IMG/VR virus record: IMGVR_UViG_3300017749_000112 | Location: 1-26,426 of that record | Origin: a virus | Length of the DNA: 26,426 nucleotides | Direction: 5' to 3' (one strand) | In this document: positions 14,392 through 26,426 of the stretch, one piece after another | Numbering within the stretch: the stretch's first letter is position 1 | How the letters are laid out: the number at the start of each line of letters is the position of its first letter | Translations under genes and position numbers: made by a program | The notes under the pieces: generated by a model | What the model was told of the DNA's origin: nothing | What the model saw: the letters and a program-made list of their open reading frames with translations, nothing else | Databases searched by the model: none

Positions 14392-17300
14392 ATGCAATTA
14401 AATAGTTTTTTCTTCAAAGGCATAATGAATAAGTCTAGTGACGAAAGGATACTACCTCCTGGAGAGTATGTAGACGCACTAAACGCTAGACTAGGCTCAA
14501 CAGAAGATTCTGAAATAGGAAGTGTAGAAAACACTAAGGGCAACACAAAACTAACCAACATCACTAATCAAGGAGTGGCATTAAGTTCTAATGCTGTTTG
14601 TATTGGTTCTTATGCAGATGAAAGTGATGAAACTATTTATTGGTTTGTGACTGATCCTTCAGTAGTTGACTTAATTATTTCTTTCAATGTAAAAACATCT
14701 GTTACTGTATACCACATTATATCTACTAGTGTATTAAACTTTAACCCAAGTAATTTAATAACAGGGGTTGAGTTAATAGATAGGTTTTTAATATTTACAG
14801 ATAATTTAAATCCACCTAGAAAAATAAATGTAGATAGGTCTTATGATTTTCCTGTTGGTGGGGTAGACCAAATAACAGAAGAAGAAATTAATCTTATAGT
14901 TAAGCCACCCATTAGCCCACCTAGTTTTACTTTGTCTAGTGCTGATGGTGATGATCAAAGTTTTTTTACAGACAAGTTTATTTCTTTTGCTTATAGGTTT
15001 AAGTATGAAGATGGAGAGTACTCTGCGCTATCTCCATTTAGCCTTCCTGCTTTTGCACCAATTACTACTAGACCTTTTCAGGTTGACTTTAACTCAGTCA
15101 AGAACGAATCAATGGTTAATGAATTCAATGCGGCAACTGTGTTTTTTAATACGGGTTCTAATTTAGTCAAAGAAATAGAAGTTTGTTATAAAGAAAGTTC
15201 AAGCACTGTTATTAAAGTAATAGACAAGTACAGTAAGTCTGATTTAGGATGGGCTGACAACTCAACACAATCTATATTTTTTAGAAACAAAGAAGTATTT
15301 AGAGTGTTATCTGCTAATGAAAGTTTAAGACTGTATGATAATGTTCCTTTAAAGGCGAAAGCTTTAACTAGTTCTGGAAACAGATTAATGTTTGGAAATT
15401 ATGTAGATGGATACGATATGAAGTCTGCTGACGGAAACGATGTTAAGTTAAATTATGTTACGAGCTTGGTAAATCCTGCTGAAAATTCTACTGTTATTCC
15501 TGGTCAGTTTGTTTCTTCAGATTACCAAGTCTTAAATGGTAGTTCTACACCAAGTACGATAAGTGTGGAAAATTCAAAAGCTGTTTTTGATTTTGGGCTA
15601 ACACAATTTACTCAAGGGTCTATTGTAAGTTTTAGTGCTTCATTAAAAAGTTTTGCTTCAGGTGGAAATTTTTATAACCAAAACACTGCTGTTTTAAACC
15701 TATCTAGAGCAACTGGTGGAGCAACATTTAATATAGCTGCATCTGTACAATTAAATAATTCATACTCAGACGTGGCTTCTTTTGTAGGTGGCCCTGATTT
15801 TGAAAGGTTAATTGGAACTGGATTAGCTACAGCAACTCCTAATTATCAACCCTTTGCTAATGCTGTTGATGGGGTAACAGCAACCGATATTTTAAATAAT
15901 TCTGTTATACAAACTCCAGCGACTAATAGTGTAGGAGGGGCTAATGTTACAGCTGTTAATTCAGCTGTTCCAAATGCAGCAGCATCTGATTCTACAATAA
16001 CACCTCCCGCTACTTACCCAACTGGTCAAACTGGTTTTTTAGAATCTTTTGACATTGCTAATCCTACAATAATAAATATACAATCACTAATGATGGTATA
16101 TAAAGTAGGTAGCACTAAGTCTTTTGAAGGGTTGGAATTTTTAAGTGCTTCATTTAGTGTTGAAACCGGCAAATCTTTAGAAAGCTTACACAGTAATAGA
16201 GATTATGACTTAGCTATGATTTATATGGATGAATATGCTAGGTCAAGTACTGCTTTAGTTAGTTTAGATAGTAGTATTAATATTCCTGCTTCTAATTCCA
16301 TTGACTTTAACAAAGTACAGGTAAATATACCTACTAGTCAAAAAGCACCATCTTGGGCTAAGCATTATAAGTTTGCCATTAAGCCATCTAAATTAAATTA
16401 CGACACCTTGTTCTTGTTGAGGGCAGAACCAGACTTAGACAATTCAGAAGAGTTTTGGTGTTTACTAGAAGGGGAGACTGCACAAAAAGTTGCTGAAGGC
16501 GAAACTTATGTAGTAAAAAAAGATATTGAGGGTCCAATGCCAAACTATACAGAAGCTACTTGTTTAGCTAAAAGCACTACTCCAAATTTAGATACAGATG
16601 CACCTTCATACCCAGGCCCTGGTGTTTATGCAAAGTTTGCTCCTGGAGGGAGTTATGAACTAAATAATCCAAACATAACAAAAGAGGTAAATGTAAGCAC
16701 TAATCAAACATCAGTACCATTAAACGGAATAGAAGGAGAATTAAGTTTAGCGACAGCTTCTGGTTCAGACCCTTTGTTTCCTACACAGACTATAGGAGAG
16801 GGCACTTCGGTTACATTAAAAATAACTTGTGAAAGAAATTCAGCTGGTTTATTTAGGGCGGCTTCTATTAAAGAAGATGAGTTAAAACTAAAATACAGTA
16901 AATTAACAGCTACTAGAACAGCTAACAGATCTTACGACACTCACGCCACTCTTCAAGCTAACCTACAAGAAATGGTCCAGGAACAATTTGTTAATGAAGA
17001 TGATTTTTTTGCTGTTTCAGAAACTGATTATTCTGGTAATAATGGTCTTGAGTATAGGTTTAAATTAGATAATTCAGTTTTAGTTACTGACGGAACTAGA
17101 TATCCTCTTACTGATGAACCTATTGCAGAAGCAGATGCTTTTCATATTGTTTCATTTTATACTGCAGGAACTAATACAATAGGTGCTATTGACAGGTTTC
17201 CAGCCTTAGCTCGATATGCTAATGATATTGGGGTGTCCAGATTAAAAATAAAAGTATCTATAACTAATCAACCTGACGGTTTAGTGGTGTTAGAAACAGA

Positions 17301-19422
17301 TGGTGAAGATACTGCAAGTGAATTTTACTATGAAGGAAATGAAGTGTTTGACATAAACGGTGACTTACACGATGGTAACCTACAAAACCAAAACACTTGG
17401 GCTTTTTATGATAATGCACAAAACAACGCTTATAGAAGCTCTCAAGGATTGCCTGCCTCACAATTTTATGGTGTAAATTTAGCTTTAACCACCACAGGTG
17501 GAACTGGAGATGATGCACCATTTTCTGTAGGTGACATAGTAAACGTACAACAAACTAATTTATCGCCAACCAATCCACAATACAATGGGCAACACACAGT
17601 AGTAGAGAAACCAGACGCCAATACCATAGTATTAGACGTTGCTTTTGGAACTGCAACTCCTGTTGAAGGAGGGTCAGTTAATGCAGATGCTATTGTGCTT
17701 ACTAACTTTTTTAACTGTTACTCTTGGGGTAATGGTATGGAAAGTTGTAGGATTCAAGACTCATTCAAAGAAGATGCTCTTAATATTGGTGAAAGAGTAT
17801 TTACTTTATCTGAGGGTGAGTTTAGACAGAAACGAAGAAACGCTTCTATTACTTATAGTGGTATATATAATGATGAAACTAAACTAAATAGAACTAACGA
17901 ATTTAATTTAGGTATACTTAACTTTAAAGATTTAGACGAAGACTTTGGTAATATAGAATTACTTAAAGCAAGACAGAATGATTTATTAGTATTGCAAGAA
18001 GATAAGATATCTTATGTATTAGTAAATAAAAACGTACTTACTTCAGCAGATGGTTTATCTAACGTGACATCAACACCTACTATATTAGGAAATCAAGTAT
18101 CTCGTTTAGAAGAATATGGTATTAGCCATAATCCAGAAAGTTATGCAGAGTTTGGTTATGATAAGTATTTTACGGATGCAAAGCGTGGTGCAGTAATTAA
18201 GTTAAGTGGTAGCTCTTATTCTAATGAATCACTAGAGGTTATATCTCAGGCTGGAATGAGGTCATACTTTAGAGATTTATTTATAGATGATTTTAATACT
18301 CAAAAAATAGGAGGATATGATCCTTATATGAATGAGTATGTATTAAGTAGCAATAACAGGACATTGCCAGTAGAACCTCAGACTGTAAACTGCGGATCAG
18401 AGCTAGAGTTTAACAACCAAACCGTGAGCTTTACCTATACTGTTAAGTTAGGGGCTTCTATAGGAACTACGGATATTGACTACAATGTAACCAGTGGAAA
18501 CATAAACATATCAGTTACTTATAATGGAGCCACTACTAATTCAGGAAGTGTTACAGGAAGCGGAACTTTTCAATTTAACAAAAACATTCCTTCTATTGAA
18601 ACTGCTGTTGTAACAGTAGCGGTAGTAGGGGTGTCTGTAGATTATTCAATCACTACTCAATGTCCAAACGCAGCTGTTATAAACGTATATCAAATATGTT
18701 TGAATAGTGGGTTTACAGGATTAGCTCCAACCATACACAATCAATATGAATGGTCTTCTGATAATCTAACGCCTTCCGTGTCTAGTCCACTTATAAACCA
18801 ACCTGTGACTTTTACAAATGTAGCAACAGGTACGGGTGTTGGAACACAAAGAGTGGCTCAATATCAAGTGTATGCTTCTCAAGTAGCTGTTGGAACAACA
18901 CCAACCCCTGAGGCGGTTTTTACGGTTAGGTCAGCTAAAACAGGTTCTGATTCATTTGATTTTAATACTAATAACGGAAATAGATTATTACACTTATTAA
19001 GTAATACTACTTACGCAAATACTCAAGCGGATATTATTTCTTTGTTGGCTGCTAGTACTAATTTAACCATATCTAATACATCAAGCGGTGTATTTGAAGG
19101 GTCGTTTAATTACAGTAACACAGGAGGAACACCAGTATCTAATTTGTATTTAATATACGACTACAGAAGTTCAACTCAAGTTAATTTATCTTTTGGATCA
19201 ACAGAAGGTATAGTTTGTGGAGGTACTGGAACACTAGGACCATACTTCCTAGACGCAGTAGTTCCTTCGGAAGCAACAGTCGTTTACAACGATGCTGCAA
19301 TGACAGTACCTGCAGCTGATGGTTATTATTTATATGTTAATCCAAATCCAACAGTAGTTGATACATATTGGTTAAGACAAGACAACGGAAGAATTGTTCA
19401 AGTAAGTGAATGTTCAAGTTAA
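14392..19422 (+). CDS. Large tail muzzle / stabilisation protein
   Basis: The 1676-aa product is the largest in the window. Residues 16-51 (DERILPPGEYVDALNARLGS, then SEIGSVENTKGN) match the N-terminus of proteins annotated as stabilisation or muzzle proteins in crAss-like and other short-tailed phages, which form the distal tube and hold packaged DNA. The centre is beta-rich with fibronectin-like and propeller-like stretches. Near 1100-1330 are conserved-looking segments (NCYSWGNGMESCRIQDSF, SYAEFGYDKYFTDAKRGAV, QKIGGYDPYMNEYVLS). From about 1333 the sequence changes to Thr/Asn/Ser-rich Ig-like repeats (SGNINISVTYNGATTNSGSV), perhaps an added surface module. About 1031-1106 holds a VGDIV-type beta insert. 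The start ATG 14392 lies one base after the previous stop. No enzyme motif was seen. Confidence 0.75.
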   Translation: MQLNSFFFKGIMNKSSDERILPPGEYVDALNARLGSTEDSEIGSVENTKGNTKLTNITNQGVALSSNAVCIGSYADESDETIYWFVTDPSVVDLIISFNVKTSVTVYHIISTSVLNFNPSNLITGVELIDRFLIFTDNLNPPRKINVDRSYDFPVGGVDQITEEEINLIVKPPISPPSFTLSSADGDDQSFFTDKFISFAYRFKYEDGEYSALSPFSLPAFAPITTRPFQVDFNSVKNESMVNEFNAATVFFNTGSNLVKEIEVCYKESSSTVIKVIDKYSKSDLGWADNSTQSIFFRNKEVFRVLSANESLRLYDNVPLKAKALTSSGNRLMFGNYVDGYDMKSADGNDVKLNYVTSLVNPAENSTVIPGQFVSSDYQVLNGSSTPSTISVENSKAVFDFGLTQFTQGSIVSFSASLKSFASGGNFYNQNTAVLNLSRATGGATFNIAASVQLNNSYSDVASFVGGPDFERLIGTGLATATPNYQPFANAVDGVTATDILNNSVIQTPATNSVGGANVTAVNSAVPNAAASDSTITPPATYPTGQTGFLESFDIANPTIINIQSLMMVYKVGSTKSFEGLEFLSASFSVETGKSLESLHSNRDYDLAMIYMDEYARSSTALVSLDSSINIPASNSIDFNKVQVNIPTSQKAPSWAKHYKFAIKPSKLNYDTLFLLRAEPDLDNSEEFWCLLEGETAQKVAEGETYVVKKDIEGPMPNYTEATCLAKSTTPNLDTDAPSYPGPGVYAKFAPGGSYELNNPNITKEVNVSTNQTSVPLNGIEGELSLATASGSDPLFPTQTIGEGTSVTLKITCERNSAGLFRAASIKEDELKLKYSKLTATRTANRSYDTHATLQANLQEMVQEQFVNEDDFFAVSETDYSGNNGLEYRFKLDNSVLVTDGTRYPLTDEPIAEADAFHIVSFYTAGTNTIGAIDRFPALARYANDIGVSRLKIKVSITNQPDGLVVLETDGEDTASEFYYEGNEVFDINGDLHDGNLQNQNTWAFYDNAQNNAYRSSQGLPASQFYGVNLALTTTGGTGDDAPFSVGDIVNVQQTNLSPTNPQYNGQHTVVEKPDANTIVLDVAFGTATPVEGGSVNADAIVLTNFFNCYSWGNGMESCRIQDSFKEDALNIGERVFTLSEGEFRQKRRNASITYSGIYNDETKLNRTNEFNLGILNFKDLDEDFGNIELLKARQNDLLVLQEDKISYVLVNKNVLTSADGLSNVTSTPTILGNQVSRLEEYGISHNPESYAEFGYDKYFTDAKRGAVIKLSGSSYSNESLEVISQAGMRSYFRDLFIDDFNTQKIGGYDPYMNEYVLSSNNRTLPVEPQTVNCGSELEFNNQTVSFTYTVKLGASIGTTDIDYNVTSGNINISVTYNGATTNSGSVTGSGTFQFNKNIPSIETAVVTVAVVGVSVDYSITTQCPNAAVINVYQICLNSGFTGLAPTIHNQYEWSSDNLTPSVSSPLINQPVTFTNVATGTGVGTQRVAQYQVYASQVAVGTTPTPEAVFTVRSAKTGSDSFDFNTNNGNRLLHLLSNTTYANTQADIISLLAASTNLTISNTSSGVFEGSFNYSNTGGTPVSNLYLIYDYRSSTQVNLSFGSTEGIVCGGTGTLGPYFLDAVVPSEATVVYNDAAMTVPAADGYYLYVNPNPTVVDTYWLRQDNGRIVQVSECSS

Positions 19423-20183: not shown

Positions 20184-20191
20184 TATATTTG
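20184..20191 (+). promoter_or_regulatory. Candidate -7 element for a leaderless transcript
   Basis: TATATTTG fits TAnnTTTG and ends only three bases before ATG 20195. In Bacteroidota transcription starts about 4-8 bases after this box, so the mRNA would begin at or beside the A of the start codon. The call is tentative because AT-rich DNA yields such boxes by chance. Confidence 0.4.
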
Positions 20192-20194
20192 CAT

Positions 20195-20947
20195 ATGGAT
20201 CCAGCTACAATGTTAATTATAAGCGGAATCACTAAAGGGGCAGGTGCCCTTTTCAGCCTAGGTCAAGCAGCTAGAGCTAAAAGTGATTTGAAAACCGCTA
20301 CAGATCAAGCTCAAAAATATATAGACAAAGCATATCAAAGCGCAGACGTAAACACTCAAAGAATGAGGTCTATTGATACTAGTTTGTATGATACTGCTAG
20401 TGAACAAATAAGTCAAGATTTATCTACTATATTAGATGTCACTGCAGGTGAAGACCCAAGATTGGCTGCGGCTCAAGGAAGTAGGCTAGCACAACAGTCT
20501 GCAAAACAAAGACAAGCTTTGGAGATGCAGAAAAGAAAAGATATTCAAGACTTAGAAAAAGATATTGCAGAAGGTGAACAAGCTAGATTAGGCAGAATAC
20601 AAACTTTAGATGAGGCTCAAGCAAAAGGGTTTCAGCAACAAGCTGCTGAAGCACAACAAAGAATGACTCAAGCAACACAACAAGCTTTACAAGCTCCCGC
20701 TTCTTTAGTAGGGGATTACACAGGAATGATAACAGCAGGTGTTTCTCCAATGCAGATTCAAAAAGGGTTTGAAGGAATGTTTGCTGGCAGTCAGCAAGCT
20801 CCACTTACTTCAGTAGGAGGTACAAGTGTGTTACCCGCTAGAACTGTAACAGGTGGTTCAGGTATGGGGTCTTTAATGAGGGGAAATGATTTACAGTTTT
20901 TGCCTGATGGAAGAATCTATGACCCTATAACAGGAAGTTTTATATAA
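20195..20947 (+). CDS. Internal virion (ejection) protein, gp14-like architecture
   Basis: The 250-aa product starts with a hydrophobic segment (ATMLIISGITKGAGALFSLG, residues 4-23). A long Ala/Gln/Lys/Glu helix with almost no beta-forming residues follows (about 25-165, including QQAAEAQQRMTQATQQALQA) and then a flexible Gly/Ser/Pro C-terminus (about 185-250) ending IYDPITGSFI. This plan resembles the smallest member of the internal-protein sets of short-tailed phages, such as T7 gp14, which leave the head and enter the envelope during infection. ATG 20195 is preferred to the TTG at 20189. Two larger proteins of similar helical character follow, which supports an ejection cassette. Sequence similarity to T7 proteins is not claimed; only architecture and position are used. 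Confidence 0.6.
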   Translation: MDPATMLIISGITKGAGALFSLGQAARAKSDLKTATDQAQKYIDKAYQSADVNTQRMRSIDTSLYDTASEQISQDLSTILDVTAGEDPRLAAAQGSRLAQQSAKQRQALEMQKRKDIQDLEKDIAEGEQARLGRIQTLDEAQAKGFQQQAAEAQQRMTQATQQALQAPASLVGDYTGMITAGVSPMQIQKGFEGMFAGSQQAPLTSVGGTSVLPARTVTGGSGMGSLMRGNDLQFLPDGRIYDPITGSFI

Positions 20948-20956
20948 TTATTAATA

Positions 20957-22945
20957 ATGGCAGCACCAGGATTAGGTTACGTAAAAAGAGATGTTGAAAA
21001 GACTACCGTTGATTGGGGAGCAATTAGTGGTGGCTTAACTACAGCACTAGGTGGAGCATTCGCTGCAGGCGAAAAACAAAAGGCAGAAGTAGCAGAAAAA
21101 AATCAATCTGTTAGTGCTGAAATACAAAAACTTCCAAGGGGAGCAACTCCAGACCAAACAAAATATTATGCTAGTATTATTCAAAAAGTTGGTGACGGTA
21201 ATCAAAAAATAAAAGATCAGTATGACAACGGTGAAATTAGCTATACTCAATATAAAATTGCAACAAACGCATTAACTAGCCAGTATCAAATATTAAAAAA
21301 TAATTTAGTTAATTATCAATCTTCTTATGATAAACTACAAGAAAACGTATTAAAAGAAGGAACTGGAAATGTTTCTTTATCGATGGCTGATATACAAACC
21401 ACAGTAGGAGACCTTGCAAATAGAACTGTTGATTGGAATATGGATTCTATGATGTTGGAATCTGTTACTAATGTAAATGGTCAAATAATTAAACAGCCAG
21501 TTGCTAATGACTTAGGTGTTATGAACTTCTACAACAAGGAGTTTAATGATAAAGTTATTACTAATGCTAATAATGTTTTTGCTAAAAAAGTTTTTGAAAC
21601 TGTAGATGCAGAAGGTAATGTAACTTACCGTGCTAATTATAAAAGTAAAGAATTTGAAAGTGCTTTAAATAATTATGTAAACTCAAAAATTAGTGATGCA
21701 AATGGTATAGATGCTTTAGAATATCTATCTAGTCCAGGAGGAAAGAAGTTAGTTTGGGGTACACCAAAAAATGATAATGAAATACAGCTTTTAATAGATA
21801 ACGACACAAAAAAGCCTATGGCTGCTAATTTAAGTGAAGTAGTTAAAAAAGCAAAAGATGGTTTAAAGAAAGATATAATAGCTCGTTTAGATACTACTTA
21901 CAGAACAAAAGAATCAGGTAAACAGTTTGAAGTAGATTTTGTTCCTAATAAAGAGATAACAATGGGGTTAGTTTCCGGAGTAAAAACTGTAGATGATTAT
22001 GTAAATCATTTAGACAGGTTTAAACCAGGTACTTATTTAAGTAAAAGTGAAATGGCTAAATCTTCTCAACCTTATAAAGTTGTTATTGATGGGGATGAAC
22101 AAGTAGTAAGTGCAGCTGAATATGTAAAATCAAGACCTGAAGCAACTTTCTTTGAGATAGATAAACAAGGAAGACCAAGACCAGTTGTTTTAAATACTTT
22201 TGAAGACTTTTTTAGTTTTGCTAATCAAGCAGCTGGAATGAATGACAAACAAATATCTGCATTCAGAAAAAAAGAACAAGGTAGAAAATATTTTGTAGAA
22301 AATGGAGAGATAAAATTTGATACCCCTGCAACCATAGCTACAAAAAGAGAAAAAGGGATTGCCTTGCCTGAATACATTAAAGGTAATAAAATTATTCAAG
22401 CAGCTTCTTCAACTGGAGCAGCTTCTTCAACTGGTTCAGCAGCAGGGTTTAACTTAAATGTATCTCTCGATAGAATAGATTTGCTTAATTCAAAAACTGA
22501 TAAAACACCTTCAGAACAACAAGAATTAAACAACTTAACAAATCAAGTAGCTGACATTTATCCTACATATGCAACTAGTTATGACGCAAGTGGTAATCCT
22601 CAAGGTATAGATACAAAGCAAGCACGAAAAGTAGTGGGGGAACAAGTTGATAAGCTTCAGTCTCAAATTAATGATTTAGAAAAAGAATTAAATTCTTATC
22701 AATTAGAGTTACAAAAGAAAGATGGTGAGTTTGTAAAAGAAGTTAGATTACAAGGAAAAACAGGATCAGAAATTAAATCATTTGAAAAATTATCGGATAG
22801 TGAGGTAGCAAACAGAAGAAGAAAAAGAAAAGAAATACAAGATAAAATAGATAAAATAAAAAACCAAATATCTGAAACTAAAGGAGAGCAGATAATTAAA
22901 CCTGTATTTGATACTTCTGTTAGGATAGATTACTCAAATAAATAA
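20957..22945 (+). CDS. Internal virion / cargo protein, helical
   Basis: A 662-aa protein, mostly helical and soluble. The N-terminus has a short Gly/Ala stretch (WGAISGGLTTALGGAFAAGE, about 20-39). The body (40-470) is Lys/Asn/Glu-rich with no recognised enzymatic motif. A low-complexity linker ASSTGAASSTGSAAG (about 483-497) precedes a C-terminal coiled coil (about 560-650) with DKLQSQINDLEKELNSYQLE and a basic segment RRRKRKEIQDKIDKIKNQIS. It follows the gp14-like gene after nine bases and precedes the 689-aa protein by two bases. A second ejection protein (gp15-like in position) or head cargo protein is the likely role. The N-terminal Gly/Ala part may be a contact for membrane or partner proteins. 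Confidence 0.55.
   Translation: MAAPGLGYVKRDVEKTTVDWGAISGGLTTALGGAFAAGEKQKAEVAEKNQSVSAEIQKLPRGATPDQTKYYASIIQKVGDGNQKIKDQYDNGEISYTQYKIATNALTSQYQILKNNLVNYQSSYDKLQENVLKEGTGNVSLSMADIQTTVGDLANRTVDWNMDSMMLESVTNVNGQIIKQPVANDLGVMNFYNKEFNDKVITNANNVFAKKVFETVDAEGNVTYRANYKSKEFESALNNYVNSKISDANGIDALEYLSSPGGKKLVWGTPKNDNEIQLLIDNDTKKPMAANLSEVVKKAKDGLKKDIIARLDTTYRTKESGKQFEVDFVPNKEITMGLVSGVKTVDDYVNHLDRFKPGTYLSKSEMAKSSQPYKVVIDGDEQVVSAAEYVKSRPEATFFEIDKQGRPRPVVLNTFEDFFSFANQAAGMNDKQISAFRKKEQGRKYFVENGEIKFDTPATIATKREKGIALPEYIKGNKIIQAASSTGAASSTGSAAGFNLNVSLDRIDLLNSKTDKTPSEQQELNNLTNQVADIYPTYATSYDASGNPQGIDTKQARKVVGEQVDKLQSQINDLEKELNSYQLELQKKDGEFVKEVRLQGKTGSEIKSFEKLSDSEVANRRRKRKEIQDKIDKIKNQISETKGEQIIKPVFDTSVRIDYSNK
22400..22435 (+). 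repeat. Two 18-bp direct repeats in the cargo gene
   Basis: GCAGCTTCTTCAACTGG followed by A or T occurs twice head to tail, encoding two A-A-S-S-T-G units. The near-identity at DNA level suggests recent duplication within a flexible linker. Confidence 0.8.
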
Positions 22946-22947
22946 AA

Positions 22948-25017
22948 ATGGACGAGGAGGTATTACAGGATTTATATAGTAGAGCTCAGTCTAAAGGTTA
23001 TACTAAATCTTTTGAAGATTTTGTTGTTTTAATACAAGGAGACACAGATGTTCAAAACGATATGTTTTCATATGTTCAAGAACAAGGGTATCAAAAGAAC
23101 ATAGAAGATTTTCAACAGTTAATAGGTGTAAAAAAAAAAGATTCAGATTTGCCTGTTCAAGAGGAAGTTACGGAGTCTATTACAGAGGTGGAAACGCCAG
23201 ATACTTCTTTGGTATCCTCAGAAAGCTTAATATTTGAAGAAGAGCCATCTCAAGAAAAAGACACACTAATAGAAAGAACATTTGGTAAAAATGTAGTTAC
23301 TGACTTTTTAGGAGATTTATATCGTTCAGCAACACAAGGATTAGGTCAAGCACAAACAGTAGATGATGCTTTGGAAATATTTACCAAAGGATCAACAGCA
23401 ACTGATGAAGATTTAACAGATTATATAAAAGCCATACAAGAATCAGAGTCTTATCAAGAAACAGATGAGATGAGAGATTTTTATAAAACCTATCAAGAAG
23501 AAGGAGAAGGTTTGTTTGGTGTATTAAAAGGTATTGGAGAAAACCCAAGTATATTACCTCAAATACTAACATCATCCATATTCTCTATGTTTAATCCAGC
23601 AGTGGCAGCTGGTGCAGGAGCAGGTGCAGGCGCAGGAGCATTAACAGGAGCAGCCGCTGGTGCAATAGGTGGTCCATTAGCTGCAATCACCGCAGGAGGA
23701 GGTGCAGTAGCTGGAATGATTGGAGGTGCTACTACCACTTTAGAAACAGCATTAACCTTTAATGAATTACTTAAAGAAGAGTTAGGTGGATTACCCTTTA
23801 CTAAAGAAAATGTTAGGGCTGTTTTAAATGACCCTGAAAAATTAAGCAGGCTTAGAAATAGAGCAGCAGGAAGAGGAGCTGCGATTGGAACAGTAGATGC
23901 TATTACTGGTGGGTTAGCAGGAAAAGCTACTACAGCTGTTCTAGGAAAAACAGCTAGAAAAGTAACTCAAGCAGGCGCTAAAAAATTAGGACAAGGAAGT
24001 AGATTAGCTGCAACAGGAACTGGATTAGGAGTAGAAGCAGTTGGTGGTAGTTTAGGAGAAGTAGCGGGAAAAGCAGTTGCTGGTCAAGAAATGGATGTAG
24101 CTGACATTGCTTTAGAAGCAGTTGCTGGATTAGGATCAGCACCAATTACATTAGGCAGGTCATTGTTTTCTAATCAACCTATTTACACTATTAATGGTGT
24201 GGAGAAAACAAAACAAGAAATGCAGGAAATTATTAAAGATATGACGGATGAAGATATTGCTTCTTCAAAAGCAAAAATAATTATTAATAATGACCCTGTT
24301 ACATATAATTTATTAAAAGATAAACTAGATAATTATACCACTAAAAAGAAAGAAACCGAAAGTGTACAAGAAGTGGAAGAAGAAGCAGTAATAAAAGACT
24401 CTCAAATTCCAACAAGTAAAGAAATATATACTCTTGAAACAGAGGAAGGTGAAGGAGTTAGAACCGTAGAAATAACTATTAATAAAGACGGAAGTAGAAC
24501 TGTAGTTCAAAAAGTAGATGGAAACATTGCTAGTAGTGAAAGGTTGTCAAAAGACAACACTCTTAGTAATAAAGAATATGTAGAAAACGCTTATGACAAT
24601 ATAGTTGGGGAGCCTCAAATATTACCAATGGAAGAGGTTATGAATCCTAAAATGAAGGAGAAATTAACCACCCAGAAAAAACAAGAGTTAGGTATAGATG
24701 AGGAAGGTCCTAGTTTTACTTTAGAAGACTATGAACTATCTGAAGACCTTAAGTCTAATGAGGATTTTGTAGAAACATACAATAAAAACATAAATAAAGC
24801 AATTGAAAATAAGGTAAATCCAGAACAATTACGTAAACTTGTAGAAGATAATTTAAAGCAGAATAAGATTTTCAAGAAGCCAGTTCTAAAAATGAACTTC
24901 ATAACTAAGTTAGAACTTACAAAGTCTAAAAATATAGAACAAACTAACTTAAAAAATATAGAAGCTAGAGAAAATTTTAAAGAAGTTAAAAAACTTATAG
25001 ATTGCTTATGGAAATAG
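22948..25017 (+). CDS. Internal virion / ejection protein with glycine-zipper membrane regions
   Basis: The 689-aa product starts with two copies of a short helical repeat: LYSRAQSKGYTKSFEDFVVL at 9-28 and MFSYVQEQGYQKNIEDFQQL at 39-58. I recall this repeat at the N-terminus of very large internal proteins of Bacteroidota phages. An acidic linker follows. Residues about 215-266 are Ala/Gly-rich (AVAAGAGAGAGAGALTGAAA) and about 305-381 contain more small-residue runs (GGLAGKATTAVLG), good candidates for membrane-inserting glycine zippers. The rest (about 440-689) is acidic and Lys/Glu-rich. No catalytic motif was seen. By position it is the third member of an ejection set. Its 3' end overlaps the next gene by 10 bases. 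A run of ten A residues (23130-23139) follows the repeats. Confidence 0.6.
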   Translation: MDEEVLQDLYSRAQSKGYTKSFEDFVVLIQGDTDVQNDMFSYVQEQGYQKNIEDFQQLIGVKKKDSDLPVQEEVTESITEVETPDTSLVSSESLIFEEEPSQEKDTLIERTFGKNVVTDFLGDLYRSATQGLGQAQTVDDALEIFTKGSTATDEDLTDYIKAIQESESYQETDEMRDFYKTYQEEGEGLFGVLKGIGENPSILPQILTSSIFSMFNPAVAAGAGAGAGAGALTGAAAGAIGGPLAAITAGGGAVAGMIGGATTTLETALTFNELLKEELGGLPFTKENVRAVLNDPEKLSRLRNRAAGRGAAIGTVDAITGGLAGKATTAVLGKTARKVTQAGAKKLGQGSRLAATGTGLGVEAVGGSLGEVAGKAVAGQEMDVADIALEAVAGLGSAPITLGRSLFSNQPIYTINGVEKTKQEMQEIIKDMTDEDIASSKAKIIINNDPVTYNLLKDKLDNYTTKKKETESVQEVEEEAVIKDSQIPTSKEIYTLETEEGEGVRTVEITINKDGSRTVVQKVDGNIASSERLSKDNTLSNKEYVENAYDNIVGEPQILPMEEVMNPKMKEKLTTQKKQELGIDEEGPSFTLEDYELSEDLKSNEDFVETYNKNINKAIENKVNPEQLRKLVEDNLKQNKIFKKPVLKMNFITKLELTKSKNIEQTNLKNIEARENFKEVKKLIDCLWK
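23611..23640 (+). repeat. GGNGCA hexanucleotide tract coding (Gly-Ala)5
   Basis: Five tandem GGNGCA units, varying only at the third base of the Gly codon, encode alternating Gly and Ala inside the hydrophobic zipper of the 689-aa protein. Such tracts can change length by slippage. Confidence 0.7.
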
Positions 25018-25358
25018 AAAGTGACTTAGAAGGTTTTATAATAGAAGAAAAAAGACACAGAGAGTTAATAAACACTATTAATAATGTTGTTAAAGAAATA
25101 CCTGAAACTAATTTAGATTTATCTTCGTTAGAGGAAATTAAGAATTCTTTAAACGACATTCTAAACAAAGAAGAAAATAACTTCAGTGATGTTAATCTAG
25201 TAGAGTCTATTAATAAACTAAGCCTTAAGGTGGAAGAAAATATTAACAGTTTGAAAGATCTTATAAAAGAACAAAGCAAACCAAAAGAGTATTCGTTTGA
25301 CATCGAAAGAAGTAAGGCCAATAATTTTATTAAAAAAGTAAATGTAATAGTTAAATAA
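25008..25358 (+). CDS. Small coiled-coil protein before the spike gene
   Basis: A 116-aa acidic helical protein with heptad-like leucine/isoleucine spacing (SLEEIKNSLNDILNK, SINKLSLKVEENINSLKDLI) and a C-terminal patterned end EYSFDIERSKANNFIKKVNV. Endings of this FDIER-x-FIKKV type occur in small phage proteins next to tail genes, as I recall them, but their function is not established. ATG 25008 is chosen over an upstream TTG at 25002; it overlaps the end of the 689-aa gene by 10 bases, and its stop overlaps the spike start (TAATG at 25356-25360). Coupling to both neighbours suggests that it works with the internal protein or the spike, for example in attachment or assembly. Confidence 0.65.
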   Translation: MEIESDLEGFIIEEKRHRELINTINNVVKEIPETNLDLSSLEEIKNSLNDILNKEENNFSDVNLVESINKLSLKVEENINSLKDLIKEQSKPKEYSFDIERSKANNFIKKVNVIVK

Positions 25359-26426
25359 TGGCAACAATCACTTCAACAAGCACAAGAATAACAATAAGTG
25401 GAGGTTATAAGGATTTTACAGGTGGTAGTGGAAACACAACAACAGTAATTCAATATAGTTCAGGTGATGCACCTGTTAGTGGTGATGCTGGTCGTTTCTT
25501 GCTTTGGAAAAATGGCGCTAATACTGGTGATTGGGAAATACGATTTATAGAAAGCGCAACATCTTCTAGCGTAACAGTTACAGATGGTGGTTTTAGTTCT
25601 GCTCCTTCTAATGGAGAAGATTTTGTTATTAGTACAAATTTAGAAGATGTACATACAGCAGTTTCTTCAGCTTGTACTAAACAAGGTAATTCTTATGCTT
25701 TTGTTGATAGAGATTTTGAACTTTCTTCTGGTGCTTTTTTAGGAGATACAAATGTAAATTTAACAACTAAATCTACTCAAACAGGTAGTGGTTTTATTCC
25801 AACTTACCCTGTAGCAAATGGTTGTGCATTACAATTTGGAAGATTAATTGGTGGTGAAGCTAATGATTCTGTTGAAACTATTGGAGGTTGTAGCGTACAG
25901 TTTGAGGTTTCTAACGATACTTTAATATTCACTAATCAGGGTTCATATAATACTGCTGGACCTGTATTGAACTTTTATGGTTGCTTAATAGAATCTTTTG
26001 GAAATGGATTTAGTCCTTTTATAAGAAGTGCTGGACCAATGAGAATCATAGGTACAATAGCAGATGGTCCAATGGGAGGTAGATTGTATTCACCAGCATC
26101 GGAGTTAGTAGATACAAGATTTAGTGGTAATTTATCTGGAGGTATAGCTTGGTCGCTAGGTGGTACATTTACAAGACCAATTAACAATGTTTTCTTTTTT
26201 CAAAACAATACTGCAATTAAAGCGTTTGAAGATTTTCAAGGTGTTTTTAGCAATACAACTTTTGCAGATTCAAACACAAATATTATTAATTCATCTGGCG
26301 CAGCACCTTCCTTGTTATTTACTTTTATTGATTGCACAACATTTCCCGATAACAAAATCACCAATACAAAAGGAAAATATAAACAAGCTAAGTCTATAAA
26401 ATATACAATAACTGATTCTAGTGGTA
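25358..26426 (+). CDS. Beta-rich tail spike / fibre protein, 3' partial
   Basis: The frame opens at ATG 25358 and has no stop to the end of the window, giving 356 residues of a longer protein. It starts ATITSTSTRITISGGYKDFT and is rich in Gly, Ser, Thr, Asn and Phe. An N-terminal beta module at about 41-93 (FLLWKNGANTGDWEIRFIES, then SVTVTDGGFSS, then EDFVIS) may attach it to the virion. From about 130 onward short strands follow one another with turns of N/G (VLNFYGCLIESFGNGFSPFI, MRIIGTIADGPMGG, FSNTTFADSNTN), which looks like a parallel beta-helix. It is probably the receptor-binding or depolymerase spike. No catalytic residues can be assigned because the protein is incomplete. Confidence 0.65.
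   Translation, partial: MATITSTSTRITISGGYKDFTGGSGNTTTVIQYSSGDAPVSGDAGRFLLWKNGANTGDWEIRFIESATSSSVTVTDGGFSSAPSNGEDFVISTNLEDVHTAVSSACTKQGNSYAFVDRDFELSSGAFLGDTNVNLTTKSTQTGSGFIPTYPVANGCALQFGRLIGGEANDSVETIGGCSVQFEVSNDTLIFTNQGSYNTAGPVLNFYGCLIESFGNGFSPFIRSAGPMRIIGTIADGPMGGRLYSPASELVDTRFSGNLSGGIAWSLGGTFTRPINNVFFFQNNTAIKAFEDFQGVFSNTTFADSNTNIINSSGAAPSLLFTFIDCTTFPDNKITNTKGKYKQAKSIKYTITDSSG

Follow-up and report, generated by a model that had tools for sequence, protein, structure and literature searches.

What is the role of a 689-residue ejection-type protein that stands where related phages carry giants, and what does the repeat at its N-terminus do? The protein, P0001, is encoded at 22948..25017 (+, ATG start) of a metagenomic IMG/VR record (G000). 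The entire record of 26,426 bp was analysed and is referred to as the window. Its source is marine phage material, and we read the phage as short-tailed and of the Bacteroidota type.

Gene neighbourhood and layout of P0001

In the window, a short open frame is followed by lysis-type genes, the terminase, portal and capsid-type genes (profile matches phrog_6681, phrog_6547 and phrog_13704, respectively), a muzzle-type gene and a three-ORF ejection cassette. The muzzle-like tail protein (14392..19422, +) sets the context. It matches Pfam crAss_MUZ (PF25731) with 47.9 bits at a cut-off of 27 (E 8e-13, best stretch residues 2-280), and a crass-type muzzle protein, a Crassvirales trait, is thus present. 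The cassette consists of a gp14-like ORF (20189..20947, +, 252 aa) and a gp15-like ORF (20957..22945, +, 662 aa), both labelled by position and size, and of P0001 as the third ORF (starts at 20189, 20957 and 22948), which takes the place of a T7 gp16-like giant. The relatives have the same order.

Downstream, a fibre-type ORF (25358..26426, +, 71% identity to locus L009) is open at the contig end, which cuts it after 1.07 kb. Unrelated genes adjoin this fibre family in most of 20 loci (L012-L031), a spread that would be that of a mobile host-range module. As it adjoins unrelated genes, the fibre gene was ruled out as a partner that tracks the short protein.

P0001 begins with a head of two 30-residue repeats (residues 1-60; 22948..23127, +), which AlphaFold2 predicts to form a four-helix domain. 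The motif KKKD (residues 62-65; 23131..23142, +) follows directly. Linker, membrane zone and next domain (23125..24356, +) have 96-97% DNA identity to L002/L003 in blastn. The profile phrog_32588 (1,686 positions) matches residues 52-477 only (E 1.7e-80). A weak but significant match of residues 51-282 to phrog_342, 'internal virion protein with endolysin domain' (E 1.1e-6, 27.9 bits), covers profile positions 156-390 of 1235; the profile has no match in P0001 before position 156.

Two glycine-zipper zones had been proposed from the letters, and both stand. Zone 1 (about residues 201-260; 23548..23727, +) is G/A-rich, has 0 charged residues in 201-250 and a GxxxG cluster at 222-256. Zone 2 (about residues 306-378; 23863..24081, +) is also G/A-rich, with GxxxG at 310, 321, 357, 366 and 370. 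Residues 206-400 contain 13 GxxxG motifs vs 6.7 expected, a count reached by 25 of 5,000 shuffles. As no 19-residue Kyte-Doolittle window exceeds 1.6, no classical transmembrane helix is predicted in P0001.

Next comes an exchangeable beta-rich module (about residues 476-590; 24375..24716, +) with 82-83% DNA identity to L005-L008 and 76% to L117. The SQIPTSKEIY module of P0001 is present twice in tandem in the L006 giant. Residues 606-689 (24763..25014, +) form the C-terminal tail, which ends LIDCLWK and is related to the end of the L009 protein. An acidic tail stopping at residue 689 had been described; the length is correct, but the acidic part is at residues 451-600 (35 D/E vs 19 K/R), and basic residues prevail in the final 89 (13 D/E vs 20 K/R). 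The model of full-length P0001 is weak (mean pLDDT 59.4, pTM 0.30), with blocks of pLDDT 86-95 in residues 491-570. VIA-align with this model gave a best Z of 5.2, which is uninterpretable.

The N-terminal head and its occurrence

The two repeats of P0001 (residues 3-30 and 34-60) have an exact spacing of 30 residues and are identical at 13/30 positions. Aligned with each other, they reach a BLOSUM62 score of 62 at a shuffle mean of -22, which 0 of 100,000 shuffles reached. A single-repeat HMM found exactly two copies in the window, both in P0001 (E 1e-14 and 8e-13), and none in the other window ORFs of at least 60 aa. The two copies seen in the sequence-only reading are thus real, while the 20 residues that it gave as the unit make up the core of a 30-residue repeat. 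Given 58 natural heads as input, AlphaFold2 predicts one compact four-helix domain (helices 3-15, 22-31, 33-45 and 52-58; mean pLDDT 91, pTM 0.73).

We found no convincing sequence relative of the head in Pfam, PHROG or PDB. PF05396 (T7 capsid assembly protein) matched with E 7e-4 and 20.5 bits, below the cut-off of 27.1, and at E up to 1 in 4/18 heads; we judged this to be chance-level. Single heads against PHROG gave a best E of 5e-4 with scattered families, and the best PDB sequence match was albumin (E 0.14); both were rejected. Foldseek gave no relative in the PDB (best E 5.7). The best six BFVD matches are viral proteins without a name (TM 0.62-0.91, E 5e-5 to 0.18), two of them single chains of 315 and 686 residues. 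The head is without match in the family libraries searched. The literature searched, including sections of PMC10172136, PMC7886860, PMC8954989 and PMC11054128, gave no description of the head repeat or of a split giant.

The occurrence of the head was determined with a DNA pattern of two GY.K..[DE].F units at a distance of 30 codons, which is blind to gene position. Over 2.9 million viral contigs, it found 83 stretches, 80 of which were returned as loci. The unit is at the N-terminus of an ORF in 80/80 loci, with GY at residue 16 (4), 17 (75) or 19 (1). The pattern is rare in bacterial and archaeal genomes (2/84,980, 2 contigs), and in cell genomes of the class the head HMM matched 1/395, that one being the search centre. 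Because the pattern itself demanded G, Y, K, D/E and F, the invariance of these residues is no evidence; of the positions that it left free, only L28 and L58 are the same in all 67 unique heads.

Such repeats had been described as heading very long internal proteins in Bacteroidota phages, and for related phages the counts agree: the head-bearing open frame has at least 1,000 aa in 59/82 carrier records, several others being cut by contig ends, and carrier frames reach 3,876 aa. Seventeen pattern ORFs end within their locus. Twelve have 1,499-3,587 aa, and five have 109, 134, 249, 319 and 760 aa. Four of these short carriers (G045-G048, loci L120-L123) have the head on ORFs of 109-319 aa and the rest of the giant in other frames; sequencing errors, decay or frameshifting are possible causes of the breaks. 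The fifth, G016 with 760 aa, is clean and without frame breaks.

The repeat had also been read as a tag that other virion proteins carry. Over whole records, the head HMM found one strong match per record in 81/82 carriers, including the circular record MW202828.1, so that a shared tag is excluded for most carriers. In G020 and G028, a weak second match lies within the same giant. The eight other records searched (L002-L008 and the L009 contig) gave no strong match over their whole length; G004 has one weak match elsewhere. The exception is G083, the only record of 82 with two head-bearing proteins. Its second head-bearing ORF (523 aa; L149 12802-14373 = G083:26801-28372; head HMM E 1.9e-21) is inserted between cassette genes 1 and 2, 3.3 kb before the usual carrier. 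As most carrier records are fragments, a second carrier may lie outside them. In this sample, where the repeat is absent from the other virion proteins of nearly all carriers, the shared-tag part of the earlier proposal fails.

The proposed fusion to virion RNA polymerase found no backing either. Crassvirus giants are RNA polymerase parts in the literature sections consulted, whereas the catalytic motif DFDxD occurs here in 1/91 head-bearing or related proteins, a lone match to a motif in a set with many cut proteins, the window too being a fragment. Other domains were observed in the giants. A HExxH zinc-peptidase-like motif lies mid-giant in 28/91 head-bearing or related proteins and is absent from P0001 and L002-L008. 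Residues 1489-1580 of the L048 giant match the methyltransferase domain PF13489 (28.8 bits, cut-off 27). The segment 'YKG.GGKRDA.GNL.TRHPGAKGSFFS' in the L002, L003, L004, L005 and L108 giants may correspond to an ADP-ribosyltransferase fold.

In tblastn of four other heads against 50,697 phage records, one head had no match, the others led to MW202828, and one of them also matched PhiPA3 (two records) and one faecal contig. The 3,859-aa giant of MW202828.1, annotated by name only as 'reticulocyte binding/rhoptry protein', has the same head (33% over 67 aa), and its gene follows tail and ejection genes in a circular record of 60,850 bp. It differs from P0001 in being a full giant. In PhiPA3, the likeness is to collagen-linked 'SAYEIAVEHGYTGTEQEWLTSL' repeats, for example in gp165, annotated as tail sheath (HQ630627), with a similar Y..A...GY......[FW]..[SL]L pattern. 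These repeats are different in that they are internal, adjoin collagen-like Gly stretches and occur in three copies. One head matches them with E 4e-5 in tblastn, and the single-repeat HMM with E 4.1 only. SAYEIAV..GYTGTE.EWL.SL collagen-linked repeats of HQ630627 gp165 and MT837718 are weakly like a single head repeat.

Mosaic make-up and the shortened form

When 71 proteins with 400 aa or more are compared beyond residue 100, their bodies fall into 13 BLASTP groups, some with other heads. The count is rough as many proteins are cut, and the pool includes the window, L002-L009, MW202828 and the second G083 protein (11). Among the close relatives that share the linker, three head types are clearly distinct, and a further head (L007) is of a diverged GY type. 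L108 and L005 have 90% identity along some 1,950 aa, but the score between their heads is 40, when a head against itself scores about 300. At the level of sequence, these comparisons show the head confined to protein N-termini, on bodies without BLAST-detectable similarity, and exchanged as a cassette.

P0001 itself is, as judged from its matches, a four-source mosaic. Its body is 97% L002 in DNA, whereas the first 91 residues are 86% L108, and head and linker are L108-like with 82% DNA identity over 22925-23223. The gene before the P0001 body (20205-22944) has only 80% DNA identity to L002/L003. Further on, 24375-24706 is L005-L008-like (82-83%), and 24966-26426 is L009-like (71%). The left joint lies within a shared run of 23-26 bp, which fits a recombination event in the linker; an assembler could also be misled by it.

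All 14 relatives found with a P0001-like protein carry giants of 1,360-2,183 aa. Eight have 1,475 (L002), at least 1,360 (L003), 1,687 (L004), 1,954 (L005), 1,943 (L006), 1,739 (L007), 1,699 (L008) and 1,953 aa (L108/G042). The open frames of six further relatives have 1,733, 1,822, 1,702, 1,859, 2,145 and 2,183 aa, the last two matching in short stretches only. With 689 aa and without the conserved C-terminal part, P0001 falls short of giant length. The C-terminal halves of the relatives do not align to it; in their place are residues 606-689, which have 39% identity over 84 aa (E 1e-11) to the end of the 1,201-aa L009 protein. Behind the giants of L002 and L004-L007 is a 125-126-aa ORF, presumably HNH endonuclease-like, which is missing behind the short P0001.

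A 116-aa ORF (25008..25358, +) starts within the end of P0001 and has 62% identity to its L009 and 29% to its G016 counterpart. The overlap of stop and start is likewise seen in L009. The small ORF occurs in 3/90 records (window, L009 contig and G016), and the ejection protein of the same three ends LI[DN]CL; the ends of contig-cut giants are unreadable. A search for LI[DN]CLWK ends found 21 stretches, with L138, which is the L009 contig, as the sole case of an ejection-type protein. The searches with the C-tail and the small ORF found nothing beyond the L009 contig. Set against its relatives, P0001 has shed its C-terminal half, and the tail at its end is accompanied by the overlapping 116-aa gene.

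The same layout is present in G016, a 70-kb contig, where the 760-aa head protein ends LIDCLNS and is followed by a 122-aa relative of the small gene and by tail-type genes. Its body matches the front of the giant L093 (35% over 504 aa). A separate 1,432-aa ORF (L119 3857-8155), followed by genes which we take to be lysis-type, matches residues 1,939-3,030 of the 3,080-aa giant L085 (27%, E 9e-77), and in 12 further records its counterpart is fused to the head in a single open frame. Hence, G016 has a split giant. The G016 C-terminal part as query had no match in the window, which ends inside the next fibre gene. The sequence-only reading that P0001 was separated from a larger ancestor thus has support in form: giants occur in 14/14 relatives, and G016 combines the short layout with a separate C-terminal gene.

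The short protein could instead be an assembly chimera of two phages joined near 24.7-25.0 kb or an interrupted giant gene, which we consider quite unlikely. The record is metagenomic, giants are found in 14/14 relatives, and G045-G048 show that broken giants occur in such data. In addition, GC falls to 25% in 24707-25358, and the right part is 71% identical to L009 while the left part is 80-97% identical to other loci. However, the joint region shares no exact run above 16 bp with L009, so it was not stitched from L009 sequence, and a stretch of about 250 bp that separates the matched parts resembles neither side at the nucleotide level. Furthermore, the frame stays open, the overlap between its end and the next gene belongs to a conserved layout, and G016 has this layout independently.

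Possible roles of the head: docking, loading or leading tip

With somewhat better than even confidence, we regard P0001 as a reduced version of the largest among the ejection (internal core) proteins in a short-tailed phage of the Bacteroidota type, with the head as a docking foot. Its position, the phrog_342 match and the charge-free G/A-rich zone fit an inner-membrane ejection protein of the gp16 type. In the literature sections consulted, the gp16-type proteins of T7 and P22 likewise come from an ejection cassette of three genes, of which theirs is the last and the largest, and they have a membrane-active middle, a wide size range, mosaic domain exchange and a basic C-terminal end. They differ in that P0001 lacks the phrog_342 part before position 156 and has the four-helix head in its place. 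Furthermore, head carriers reach up to 3,876 aa, while P0001 is shortened to 689 aa and has another C-tail. As the sizes given in part of a review start at 609 aa (609-1337 aa), with domain swapping (PMC8954989), the short form is not without parallel.

The head may serve docking or loading because it has a fixed place, is rare outside these phages, has a compact fold and is exchanged between bodies. In the proposed mechanism, it would anchor P0001 to a conserved structure inside the virion, be it portal, core or tail lumen, and the docked protein would be loaded and leave first. The charge-free G/A-rich zone would then enter the inner membrane of the host in the manner of gp16-type proteins, and the basic C-tail would contact the 116-aa partner. 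The C-terminal cytoplasmic part may be dispensable in the window phage or may come from a separate gene beyond the contig end, as in G016. Several observations count against this reading: the hydropathy of P0001 stays below the usual threshold for a classical transmembrane helix, its full-length model is weak, and the C-terminal half is absent from the contig. In addition, looser single repeats occur in collagen-like tail proteins of other phages, and the A-type head is found beside a long gp15-type gene in the window (662 aa) and beside a short one in L108 (469 aa).

The crassvirus cargo proteins gp45/gp46 of PhicrAss001 provide a comparison. As in the window, a muzzle-type protein is encoded upstream; this cargo is stored in head and tail. 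Unlike here, no head repeat is mentioned in the sections of PMC10172136 consulted. According to the same sections, the N-terminal part of the cargo protein gp45 is placed in the tail, ready to leave first (PMC10172136). This would also suit a head that is the leading tip and meets the host envelope after ejection, its swapping then being host adaptation. The head is always at the extreme N-terminus, and near-identical phages have different heads, as such a tip would have. The sole point that separates this from docking is a weak one, namely that sequence and fold searches with the head brought up no related host protein. We hold the envelope tip to be rather doubtful.

KKK follows within 45 aa of the head in 52/62 unique heads, where shuffling expects 1.4, and D or E comes next in 56/67 loci with KKK. 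P0001 has this family trait, with KKK[D/E] behind a double GY-K repeat head at the N-terminus; the lysine motif had gone unnoticed in the first inspection of the letters. Head and KKK[D/E] together might be a procapsid-loading peptide which a maturation protease cuts at the lysines. We know of no protease site for these phages, which counts against this reading, as does the same linker joining other head types in L002-L008. The common linker of the close relatives is KKK-[DE]-[SL]-D-[LF]-PVQEEVTESI, and as it is common to these other head types, it could be a plain charged hinge. A cleaved loading peptide appears rather unlikely. A tentative proposal, to which we give slightly more room, is that head and KKK[D/E] form a portable loading signal that would be sufficient for virion entry. 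It would have been moved onto the unrelated 523-aa protein of G083 and would enable a two-part giant, as in G016 and as predicted for the window phage.

The choice and order of the proteins that phages inject before their DNA is an open question for most podoviruses. A compact N-terminal domain that is almost always on one cassette protein is a concrete candidate for a loading or docking signal. With the natural head swaps and the split giant, nature offers experiments that could tell the loading part from the part that crosses the membrane and from the part that can be provided in trans.
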